Positions 3,167-39,502 of a stretch of DNA of 39,502 nt are shown here, piece by piece (position 1 is the first letter of the stretch; each line of letters starts with the position of its first letter). The stretch comes from a virus, in the IMG/VR virus record IMGVR_UViG_3300046516_000422, positions 1-39,502 of that record; one strand, 5' to 3'. The notes beneath the pieces were generated by a model. That model saw only the letters and a program-made list of their open reading frames with translations, was not told the DNA's origin and ran no database searches. The position numbers and the translations under genes are program-made.

Positions 3167-3232
3167 CGTGGCAAGGAGTCGCATCACCCTAGTACCGACC
3201 GCGCGGCGAGGGAGGGCGCGCGCGGCCTGACG
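3133..3232 (+). repeat. Direct duplication of the gene 3' end
   Basis: The 36-nt segment 3133-3168, which encodes the last codons and stop of the preceding gene, is repeated at 3197-3232 with 31 of 36 identities. All five differences are A in the gene copy and G in the downstream copy. The repeat runs directly into the GGCNN array, which starts one or two bases later. The second copy reads TARRGRARAA-stop against TARRKKARAA-stop. Confidence 0.75.
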
Positions 3233-3233
3233 A

Positions 3234-3605
3234 TGGCAGGTAAGGCAGGCGAGGAATGGCAGGGCGCGGCACGGCGCGGCTTAGCTGGGCCAGGCCGGGC
3301 AAGGCATGGCAGGCATGGCATTGCGTGGCGTGGCTGGGCTCCGCGTTGCATCGCGCGGCTTGGCGGGGCACGGCAGGCATTGCATTGCATGGTGACGCAA
3401 TGCGTGGCTGCGCGCGGCAACGCCGGGCGTGGCGCGGCAGGCGGGACGAGGCCCATCTGGGCACTGCCAGGCGGGGCGAGGCTAGGCGGGGCGCGGCCTG
3501 GCTCGGCATCGCGCAGCATGGCCGGCGTGGCGCGGCAGGCATGGCCGGGCCGGGCTTGGCACGGACGGGCCTGGCACGGCAAGGCAGGGCAAGGCAGTCG
3601 AGGCA
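3234..3605 (+). repeat. Degenerate GGCNN pentanucleotide array
   Basis: About 370 bp made largely of 5-bp units of the form GGCNN on the + strand (for example GGCGC-GGCAC-GGCGC-GGCTT and GGCAA-GGCAT-GGCAG), with occasional TGC, CGC or GCA variants and short phase slips. A 5-bp period returns to frame every 15 nt, so it leaves frames open on both strands. The resulting translations (WHGRAWHGKAGQG-like and PCQARPCQARPG-like) are low complexity and not convincing as proteins. The array has strong G-over-C skew and lies immediately upstream of the replication gene at 3618, whose Shine-Dalgarno follows it. I see no ordinary gene here. A role in replication or R-loop formation is inference. Confidence 0.85.
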
Positions 3606-3617
3606 TAGAGGACGAGC

Positions 3618-4265
3618 ATGCACAGTTACCCGCATCACATCGGCGATTTTGCGAAAGCGACCAGGGGGCTCACGCTCACGGAGCGCGGCGCATACCGCGA
3701 ATTGCTCGACCAATACTATGCGCACGAAGCACCGTTACCGCTCGACAAGCGCGAACGCTACCGGCTCGCCGGGGCGGTAACGCTTGCCGAGCGCGTCGCG
3801 GTCGACTACGTCGTCGCCAAGTTTTTCGAGCAAGAGGACGACGGCCACCACCAAAAGCGCGCCGACGCCGAGCTCGCGAAGTATCACATCCGCCACAGCA
3901 AGGCGCTGGCGGCGTCCGTCACGCGCTGGGCGGGCGATGCTAAAACGCGACCCAAGCATGCGCCGAGCAATGCTCAATCGATGCTCGACGAGGCGCCAAG
4001 CAATGCTCGAGCCGATGCTCAAAGCGGCGCCGAGCAATGCTTGGACGATGCTCGGCCGATGCTAACCAAAACCGTTATATCTAATAACGGTGCAGTGACT
4101 TCCAACGAAGCCGCGCGCGGGGATTGGATGCGATCGCCGGAGGGCATTGTTGCCAAAGGCAAAACCGTCGGCATTGAAGCGCGACCAGGGGAAGCCTTAC
4201 CGCAATTGCGCATGCGCGTGCTGCGCGCAGTCGCCGAGCACAAACACCACAACACCGGCGAATAG
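3618..4265 (+). CDS. Replication protein, DUF1376 (YdaU-like) family
   Basis: The product is 215 aa and starts at an ATG with GAGGACGAG upstream. Residues 1-85 (YPHHIGDFAKATRGLTLTERGAYRELLDQYY, then LPLDK, then a helical VVAKFFEQED block) match the DUF1376 domain known from phage and prophage replication-initiation proteins. The family usually has a winged-helix-like N-terminal domain. The middle (about 115-150) has an 11-aa quasi-repeat (APSNAQSMLDE, APSNARADAQSG, AEQCLDDARPML) that mirrors DNA iterons inside the gene. The C-terminal 65 aa are not recognisable. No helicase or primase is visible in the genome, so replication is likely host-dependent with this as origin-binding protein. Confidence 0.8.
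   Translation: MHSYPHHIGDFAKATRGLTLTERGAYRELLDQYYAHEAPLPLDKRERYRLAGAVTLAERVAVDYVVAKFFEQEDDGHHQKRADAELAKYHIRHSKALAASVTRWAGDAKTRPKHAPSNAQSMLDEAPSNARADAQSGAEQCLDDARPMLTKTVISNNGAVTSNEAARGDWMRSPEGIVAKGKTVGIEARPGEALPQLRMRVLRAVAEHKHHNTGE
3936..4091 (+). other. Candidate lambda-type replication origin (iterons plus AT-rich palindrome)
   Basis: Eight copies of ATGCT begin at 3937, 3970, 3981, 4003, 4015, 4037, 4048 and 4059, spaced 33, 11, 22, 12, 22, 11 and 11 bp, so nearly all lie on the same DNA face. They fall in three 33-34 bp units starting at 3960, 3993 and 4027. Directly after the last copy is an AT-rich stretch in this GC-rich genome, with a perfect 8-bp inverted repeat ACCGTTAT/ATAACGGT (4071-4078, 4084-4091, loop ATCTA). 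Iterons followed by an AT-rich unwinding region inside the initiator gene is the arrangement of lambda ori in gene O. Confidence 0.7.
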
Positions 4266-4554: not shown

Positions 4555-4559
4555 ATTCG

Positions 4560-4581
4560 TGGGCATGAGCAAAAATGCCCA
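4560..4581 (+). promoter_or_regulatory. Inverted repeat over the terS start, near-operator
   Basis: TGGGCAT and ATGCCCA (4560-4566 and 4575-4581) form a 7-bp inverted repeat with an 8-nt loop that contains part of the terS start region (ATG 4565). Within it, 4567-4580 differs by one base from the repressor operator found at 35550-35563. As RNA it could mask the start codon; as DNA it could be a weak repressor site at the early/late boundary. No clear Shine-Dalgarno precedes terS. Confidence 0.4.
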
Positions 4582-5083
4582 GCCTCCGAAGCCGAGCACC
4601 AAGCGCAAGCGGCCGAAGCCCGAGCCCGCGAAGCGCAAGCGCGGGCGCCCGTCGAAATTCGACGAGCGCTACGTCGGCATTGCGCGCAAGGCGGCGCGCA
4701 TGGGCGCCACCAACGAGGATTTAGCCGAATACTTCGCGGTCAATCCGAGCACGATCGACGATTGGATTGCGAGCCGGCCGGAATTTTCAGGCGCCATAAA
4801 AGAAGGACGCTCCGATGCCAATGCGCGCGTCGAGCGCGCGCTATTCGAGCGTGCCTGTGGTTACGAGCACGACGACATCGACATCCGCACCATTGCCATA
4901 GGCGACGGCCGCAGCGAAATCGTGCAGACGCCTGTGCGCCGCTACTTCGCGCCGGACACGACCGCCTGCATTTTCTGGACAAAAAACCGGATGCCGGATC
5001 GCTGGCGCGACAAGATACAGCACGAACATAGCGGCATCGATTTTGCGTTGATCCTGGCGCAAGCCCGTAAGCGCGCATCGTGA
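4565..5083 (+). CDS. terS: Terminase small subunit
   Basis: The DNA-recognition subunit of the packaging motor, 172 aa from ATG 4565 (a GTG at 4559 would add two residues). After a basic N-terminal tail with an AT-hook-like KRKRGRPSKF, residues about 35-75 form a helix-turn-helix (IARKAARMGATNEDLAEYFAVNPSTIDDWI). Then comes FSGAIKEGRSDANARVERALFERACGYEHDD, the characteristic signature of phage small terminases. The C-terminal part (FAPDTTACIFWTKNRMPDRWRDK) also matches this family. It lies directly before a 52-aa protein and terL with 4-bp overlaps. The AT-hook motif is notable because it recurs in three other proteins of this phage. Confidence 0.88.
   Translation: MSKNAQPPKPSTKRKRPKPEPAKRKRGRPSKFDERYVGIARKAARMGATNEDLAEYFAVNPSTIDDWIASRPEFSGAIKEGRSDANARVERALFERACGYEHDDIDIRTIAIGDGRSEIVQTPVRRYFAPDTTACIFWTKNRMPDRWRDKIQHEHSGIDFALILAQARKRAS

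Positions 5084-16219: not shown

Positions 16220-16227
<8 letters not shown>
13828..16227 (+). CDS. Tail tubular protein B (nozzle)
   Basis: The product is 799 aa. The N-terminus ([51 protein letters not shown]) is the clear signature of phage stabilisation/nozzle proteins of the T7 gp12 type. Later blocks [55 protein letters not shown] and [26 protein letters not shown] are also typical. It forms the tail tip below the adaptor ring and the attachment point of fibres. Length is normal for the family. Confidence 0.92.
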
Positions 16228-17793
<1,566 letters not shown>

Positions 17794-17797
<4 letters not shown>

Positions 17798-39091: not shown

Positions 39092-39502
39092 ATGCGTCAT
39101 CCCGTATTGGCTTGGATTGTCCCGATCGACGGCGGCCCCGTCGACCCCGGCTTCGGCCGTCCTGGCGGCGGATATGACCCCGTCGACCCCGGCTATGGTC
39201 GGCCCGGCTGGCGTCCGGTCGACCCCGGCTTCGGCCGTCCTGGCGGCCCGGTTGACCCCGGCTACGATCGTCCGCAATACATCGTCATCCCGCCCGACGC
39301 GATCGCACCCGGCGTGCCGTCGCATACGATCGTGCTGCCCAGCGAGCCCGTCGACCCCGGCTTCGGCCGTCCTGGCGGCCCGGTCGACCCCGGCTACGGC
39401 CGCCCCGGCTTTTCGCCGGTCGACCCCGGCTTCGGCCAGGGCGGGCGCGACCACGTCTCGCCGCCGATCGTCTACCCGCCGGGCTTGCCCGACAACTCGC
39501 TG
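39092..39502 (+). CDS. PVDPG-repeat protein, N-terminal part (continues at 1-412)
   Basis: The gene starts at ATG 39092 with TAAGGAGA upstream, begins MRHPVLAWIVPIDGGPVDPGFGRPGGG and continues with repeats of PVDPG(F/Y)G(R/Q)P through the circular join into 1-412, total 231 aa. The first residues are a short hydrophobic strand, not a clear signal peptide. Seven or more copies of the PVDPG unit are spaced by 8-12 residues, with interruptions such as PSHTIVLPSE. Proline-glycine repeats suggest an extended or flexible protein. It is the last gene of the rightward operon. The contig ends inside the gene. Confidence 0.8.
   Translation, partial: MRHPVLAWIVPIDGGPVDPGFGRPGGGYDPVDPGYGRPGWRPVDPGFGRPGGPVDPGYDRPQYIVIPPDAIAPGVPSHTIVLPSEPVDPGFGRPGGPVDPGYGRPGFSPVDPGFGQGGRDHVSPPIVYPPGLPDNSL
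39376..39502. repeat. 127-bp terminal direct repeat (also 1-127)
   Basis: Bases 39376-39502 are identical to 1-127 over their full 127 bases. Because the overlap lies within a repeat-rich gene and the frame continues across it, it marks circular closure of a 39,375-bp molecule. A length of 127 is a common largest k-mer of short-read assemblers, so the overlap is probably an assembly product and not a biological terminal repeat. Confidence 0.9.

Follow-up and report, generated by a model that had tools for sequence, protein, structure and literature searches.

The window analyzed here is a 39,502-nt stretch of viral DNA (IMG/VR record IMGVR_UViG_3300046516_000422) from a temperate phage with integrase, head-tail adaptor and tail genes. 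At 3618-4265 it carries a gene for a DUF1376 protein, which is followed by a gene of no recognized family and then by the terminase (TerS at 4559-5083, with TerL after it); no helicase loader was recognized beside the DUF1376 gene using PHROGs and Pfam. The features discussed below, with frames referring to the DUF1376 gene, are:

3618..4265, + strand: gene for the DUF1376 protein (215 aa), a proposed replication initiator carrying its own origin (Pfam PF07120, PHROGs)
3618..3899, + strand: DUF1376 domain, residues 1-94, a predicted small winged-helix-like fold (Pfam match 4-87, AlphaFold2 model)
3855..3935, + strand: coding stretch for the predicted long helix, residues 80-106, ending in the basic segment AASVTRW, class C of four (model, class assignment, co-variation)
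3937..3941, + strand: iteron core 1, ATGCT (GCGATGCTA), frame 1
3970..3974, + strand: iteron core 2 (GCAATGCTC), frame 1
3981..3985, + strand: iteron core 3 (CGATGCTC), frame 0
4003..4007, + strand: iteron core 4 (GCAATGCTC), frame 1
4015..4019, + strand: iteron core 5 (CGATGCTC), frame 1
4037..4041, + strand: iteron core 6 (GCAATGCTT), frame 2
4048..4052, + strand: iteron core 7 (CGATGCTC), frame 1
4059..4063, + strand: iteron core 8 (CGATGCTA), frame 0, abutting the AT-rich patch
4059..4092, + strand: AT-rich patch, a candidate DNA unwinding element by its AT content, without melting data
4063..4076, + strand: TAACCAA plus AACCGTT, the degenerate counterpart of the (TAACCAA)n array of the family; the junction ATGCTAACCAA is identical in the homologous loci L084 and L029
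4071..4091 (arms 4071-4078 and 4084-4091), no strand assigned: 8-bp inverted repeat ACCGTTAT/ATAACGGT, kept in the relative L001 and not distinguishable from chance
4093..4262, + strand: coding stretch for the C-terminal tail, a proposed helicase or loader contact (inferred by analogy with lambda O and from the independent exchange of C-terminal parts in homologues)

Other repeats are present in the window. In the 385 bp immediately upstream of the DUF1376 gene (3220-3604), no forward frame is open throughout and GGC recurs at 5-bp steps (GGCNN pentads; 34 of 55 intervals have this length) with a strong strand bias of 56 GGC against 11 GCC; the pattern (GGCNN)4 has 15 matches there as compared to 0.15 expected in the whole window. 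The tract is missing from L001, and we rejected a link to DUF1376: similar long tracts occur in other viral contigs, with DUF1376 in none of 80 loci. A collagen-like protein with long G-X-T repeats (GNTGATGAG...) and then a glycine-rich part is encoded at 16220-17797, its gene including 87-bp tandem units at 16528-16932, and the right end of the record (39130-39437) carries tandem 33-36-bp repeats coding for PVDPGFGRPG-like peptides.

The window protein matches PF07120 over residues 4-87 (E 2.9e-25; 88.9 bits against the curated cut-off of 30.1, i.e., family membership is met) and 'primosomal protein' families of PHROGs with E-values down to 5.7e-25, upholding the assignment of the gene to the DUF1376 type in a preliminary description made from the sequence alone. 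The lambda O family profile finds no match in this protein, DUF1376 being the only family recovered in Pfam; therefore, as far as profile matches can tell, it works like lambda O rather than is lambda O. An AlphaFold2 model (pLDDT 83.5) predicts helices at residues 8-14, 20-36, 44-51 and 56-69 and a β-hairpin with strands at 71-73 and 76-78, followed after the domain by a long helix (80-106) bearing the basic segment. A fold search of the PDB with the predicted DUF1376 model yielded nothing significant (best E 0.2), but among viral protein models the predicted fold has matches to those of DUF1376, Lin1244-like and replisome-organizer proteins.

The eight ATGCT motifs occupy 3937-4063, about 320-440 bp into the gene and not at a promoter, with start spacings of 33, 11, 22, 12, 22, 11 and 11 bp, exactly as the preliminary description had listed them; the 33-34-bp units it had recognized are likewise present at 3946, 3979 and 4013, and TRF reports a period of 34 at 3960-4053. 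The motif occurs 32 times in the whole window, with these 8 copies inside the array of the DUF1376 gene. In 5,000 synonymous-codon shuffles of the gene its count averages 2.1 and never exceeds 6, while a post-hoc statistic that takes whichever pentamer scores best within 130 bp is matched in 21 of the 5,000. The copies are read in frames 0, 1 and 2 of the gene (contexts GDAK, SNAQ, SMLD, SNAR, ADAQ, EQCL, DDAR and PMLT); therefore, the repeated item is the DNA and not the peptide. The motifs had also been described as facing one side of the helix, which is correct locally but not for the array as a whole. Their phase coherence is R = 0.99 at the best period of 11.1 bp, a value reached by none of 50,000 random placements, but only 0.32 at the B-DNA repeat of 10.5 bp. 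Hence, the sites drift around the helix and one-face phasing is only local: the array is a row of 11-bp units with an 11.1-bp site register, and not strictly a single helix face. The post-domain linker of the window gene also meets a test for the 11-bp register (p 0.003, synonymous shuffles). In L001, a relative with 95% identity, all eight sites and the AT-rich patch are retained, the differences there falling between sites; 0 of 53 repeat bases are changed as against 8 of 187 other bases.

The claim that the array ends at an AT-rich patch proved accurate, as 4059-4087 is the most AT-rich 29-mer among all the bases of the window. The 8-bp inverted repeat noted there exists but has no evidential weight: 30 such perfect repeats (8-bp arms, 3-10-bp loops) exist in the window and the element is not a feature of the family, and we dropped it as evidence for an origin. 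The preliminary description had further suggested looking for a turn in GC skew near 4000; the skew instead forms a plateau from about 4 to 9.5 kb without a sharp turn and is not diagnostic.

To place this array in context, homologues were drawn from GenBank phages, IMG/VR and GTDB genomes by a conserved N-terminal pattern (MxYYxHHIGD type), giving 171 genes, of which 99 are non-redundant in the linker; with this sampling the results hold for the core branch of the family. We counted identical 6-mers at each lag in the 330 nt after the domain and compared them to synonymous-codon shuffles. Pooled over the 99 genes, there are 126 identical 6-mers at lag 11 as compared to 22 in shuffles (z 26) and 79 as compared to 17 at lag 22, with a further excess at 33-34 and 44. 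Likewise, lag 7 shows 136 as compared to 21 (z 28) and lag 14 shows 105 as compared to 17, with excess also at 21, 28 and 35, while the remaining lags are mostly close to expectation. The DNA of the DUF1376 domain itself has no such peaks at lags 7, 14, 22 and 44. At p 0.05 in individual genes, the 11-bp signal is found in 65 of 99, the 7-bp signal in 69 and one or both in 90, with 9 for control lags; in neighboring ORFs the two signals are seen in only 5 and 7 of 83, respectively. The protein sequence thus does not account for the 11- and 7-bp signals. Of the 44 genes in which both arrays reach significance, 40 have the 7-bp array on the 3′ side of the 11-bp one. As in the window, the iterons of the family genes use all three reading frames.

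The arrays also diverge more slowly than their surroundings. Across 52 independent pairs of related genes, divergence is 11.9% in the 11-bp array and 9.7% in the 7-bp array as compared to 20.2% in the rest of the linker, and the lower rate is seen in the repeat bases for 32 of 38 pairs (11-bp array) and 40 of 44 pairs (7-bp array), though gapped alignment of repeats may slightly favor the repeat bases in this comparison. Conservation in the arrays acts on the DNA rather than the protein, because the iterons run through three frames and the base before AACCA in the 7-bp repeats (see below) dodges an in-frame TAA. The preliminary description, which had proposed a search for the phased motif in homologous genes, would have regarded homologues with the domain but without phased repeats, and with coverage peaks elsewhere, as counting against it. 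As regards the repeats, this objection fails for the core family, nearly all genes of which have arrays as detailed above; many divergent hits from Alphaproteobacteria do lack them, with some having 11-bp arrays (e.g., L531 with TGTAACG), and the claim is therefore limited to the core branch. Divergent DUF1376 genes with repeats of their own were also noticed in genomes of another phylum (that of a planctomycete relative, G002), namely CCCAACC every 5 bp in L541 and GAACAGG (GAACAGGTGTT) at 11/22 bp in L542.

Downstream of the last iteron, core genes of all iteron types (described below) have a tract in which ACCA recurs at intervals of 7 (sometimes 6) nt, in the form of TAACCAA, ACACCAG or CCAACA, the last coding for PTPTPT (hereinafter heptads). 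In 82 genes, the first 20 nt of this tract comprise 52% A, 36% C, 8% G and 4% T, i.e., A is raised and G+T are reduced to 12%. The base before AACCA is T in 64-76% of cases in the two frames in which no TAA codon results, and A or G where an in-frame stop would arise. A DNA-only scan of IMG/VR with AACCAWNAACCAWNAACCAWNAACCA (AACCAWN repeats), using no protein information, recovered at least 80 loci; among the matches listed, 77 of 80 lie inside a DUF1376 ORF, all 77 in sense orientation, and of the remaining three, two appear to be DUF1376 genes truncated at a contig end. A second pattern (CACCA) fell in DUF1376 at 70 of 80 loci among the matches listed when scored in all frames; scoring by the longest ORF undercounts these, at 63 of 79 among the matches listed. 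An alternative pattern, TAACCANTAACCANTAACCA, matched only non-coding or antisense DNA and was replaced by the AACCAWN repeats; it cannot sit in a gene because its 7-bp period puts TAA in all three frames. In the window gene alone, there is no significant 7-bp array (p 0.76, synonymous shuffles). Natural chimeras break at the heptads: identity between L009 (3465) and L161 is 59% up to this point and 97% in the C-terminal part that follows, such that different DUF1376 domains and iteron types are joined to near-identical C-terminal parts exactly after the heptads.

De novo word enrichment, with genes grouped on the protein segment just after the domain, defines four iteron types, unrelated to each other and sharing one layout: type A joins the segment GKASAAKRA to the iteron GTTCAAC, type B joins GGRP to AACCCAG, type C joins SAxxRW to GCAATGC/GAACGCA, and type D joins RxRRxR to GTCACG/TGCAACG. 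The window has a C segment (AASVTRW) and C-like iterons (GCAATGCTC/CGATGCTC), its type being read from the sequence as its own seed score is below the cut-off. With seed words, iteron type agrees with segment in 67 of 73 assignable genes, as compared to a mean of 21.8 and a maximum of 34 over 2,000 permutations. This figure is partly circular, as the seed words were picked after the enrichment had been seen; de novo phased words agree in direction. When the tree is built from the domain alone, the segment class switches many times along it; among independent pairs taken from well-supported branches, the iteron type follows the segment class and almost never does the opposite, though these pairs are too few for significance alone. 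The correlation could partly reflect joint inheritance or transfer, because segment and iterons are adjacent DNA. As for the gene neighborhood, the next gene (n=83) is a P-like helicase loader in 28 cases, a DnaC-like loader in 15 and a DnaB-like helicase in several, with overlaps between these families, and its Pfam families include IstB, DnaB_C and Phage_lambda_P. Several isolated phages have CI, Cro or CII genes on the upstream side of the DUF1376 gene.

We propose, with a probability of roughly 85%, that the DUF1376 protein initiates phage replication in the manner of lambda O, and that 3937-4092, within the part of its gene coding for a flexible linker, is its origin; both binding and origin activity are inferred. 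The idea of a lambda-like origin inside the DUF1376 gene goes back to the preliminary description and is now supported by the arrays across the family, the A/C-rich tract 3′ of the iterons and the loader genes that often come next. The window meets the lambda-type layout of iterons and an AT-rich tract inside a putative initiator gene, though in layout only and without binding data. By the same sequence comparisons, this two-part design of 11-bp iterons and a presumably easily melted stretch within coding sequence recurs across the core DUF1376 family. What speaks against the origin reading is that binding and replication data are lacking for every member, and that the window is without a significant 7-bp array or a recognized loader. 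The GC-skew plateau, the possible joint inheritance of segment and iterons, the divergent genes without arrays and the absence of a significant PDB match count against it as well. Mechanistically, the DUF1376 protein would bind the 11-bp iterons as a head-to-tail row, and this binding would strain the adjoining AT-rich or heptad DNA until it melts, with the melted strand being held open in a strand-specific manner. Helicase might then be loaded via the C-terminal tail together with a P- or DnaC-like loader, usually the product of the next gene, a step inferred from gene order. Recognition of the iteron type by the short basic segment ending the long helix is likewise inferred, from the observed correlation. 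Given that initiator, iterons and melting element lie within about 500 bp, the module could move between phages as a unit.

Phased sites would equally suit a repressor, and an early operon is a plausible target; hence, the repeats might be an operator array through which the DUF1376 protein or a phage repressor controls transcription of the replication operon, with the origin elsewhere. An initiator bound at its origin can also regulate its own gene, so these readings are not exclusive. As a replacement for the origin, we nonetheless hold an operator to be improbable: the array is well inside the gene and not at a promoter, a G-poor A/C heptad tract of the kind typical of melting elements always follows it, and the four unrelated iteron types keep the same layout. 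The position of the terminase genes downstream in the window raises the alternative of a packaging or terminase recognition site (cosB- or pac-like), the more so as lambda cosB sites adjoin the small terminase gene. We give this very little credence, as the same layout in relatives precedes helicase loaders, helicases or unrelated genes, terminase being absent from the next-gene families listed, and the repeat type tracks the DUF1376 linker rather than a terminase.

That recombination linkers promoting module exchange between phages account for the repeats appears just as hard to sustain. The natural chimeras do break at heptads, but such breakpoints at a shared stretch are expected of any conserved element; moreover, exchange requires shared sequence, yet the iterons differ between types, and neither the 11-bp register nor the strand asymmetry is necessary for recombination. 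The least credible alternative is that the pattern has no DNA function and is a by-product of a low-complexity disordered linker rich in N, Q, P, T and A. While these linkers do encode repetitive peptides (e.g., NNQEPITNNQ, HQTPDTRHQTP and PTPTPT), shuffling that preserves the protein abolishes the excess at lags 11 and 7, none of the spacings 11, 22, 7 and 14 is divisible by three, and one DNA word appears in three frames.

The closest parallel to the proposed DUF1376 origin is the lambda ori in gene O and its relatives in Stx phages (PMC7466680), in which the origin also lies in the middle of the initiator gene, with repeated sites and then an AT-rich tract. Lambda further has a helicase-loader gene in the next position (P after O), as many DUF1376 relatives do though none was recognized beside the window gene, and it shares the CI/Cro/CII context of several isolated DUF1376 relatives. 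It differs in having 18-bp iterons that start 20-24 bp apart as opposed to sites 11 bp apart, and in lacking the 7-bp A/C-rich array seen in most DUF1376 relatives; the window protein, as noted, matches PF07120 only. Lambda O (L174), used as a yardstick in the lag test, gives the expected word repeats at lags 20 and 23 and no heptads. In Stx phages extra iterons add residues to the O protein (PMC7466680), and extra sites would likewise lengthen the DUF1376 protein.

The iteron plasmids RK2 (TrfA) and F (RepE) similarly have iterons beside an unwinding element with short repeats of its own, one strand of which is bound by the initiator (PMC4081077, PMC10797057). These repeats are 13-mers as opposed to the DUF1376 7-mers, and an origin inside the initiator gene is not reported in those two sources. 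Strand binding by DUF1376 proteins remains hypothetical. The plasmid initiators contain two winged helices, a criterion that the window protein does not meet: a single winged-helix-like domain is predicted in residues 1-118, in a model that excludes the linker and tail of about 100 residues. DnaA-trios and the ssDNA motif of RctB are also short tandem motifs beside initiator boxes and are read as a single strand by the initiator (PMC10797057), but the proteins are unrelated and the motifs are of 3 and 5 nt in contrast to the 7-nt (sometimes 6-nt) period in DUF1376 genes. Finally, viral proteins named as Firmicute phage replisome organizers and Lin1244/Lin1753-like proteins match the predicted DUF1376 fold, though with low sequence similarity and more weakly than the DUF1376 matches.

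Extending this to the family as a whole, we see an even chance that DUF1376 proteins constitute a self-contained, portable initiator-plus-origin module. Herein, the basic helix end would read one of four 11-bp iteron types, and the universal 7-nt A/C-strand repeat would serve as a strand-specific single-strand element for the assembly of initiator and loader; coding and origin functions would be superimposed, with in-frame TAA avoided by GAA or AAA. We found no description of a DUF1376 origin in the open-access literature, subscription journals not being covered. The analysis offers a likely function, that of a replication initiator, for a Pfam family of unknown function and pinpoints candidate origins at single-base resolution in many proteobacterial phages and prophages, with the heptad pattern providing a simple DNA signature for spotting such origins in raw sequence. 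The swappable basic segment coupled to four iteron types presents a ready test of origin specificity, and the heptads may offer a new case for the question of how initiators other than DnaA hold melted DNA.
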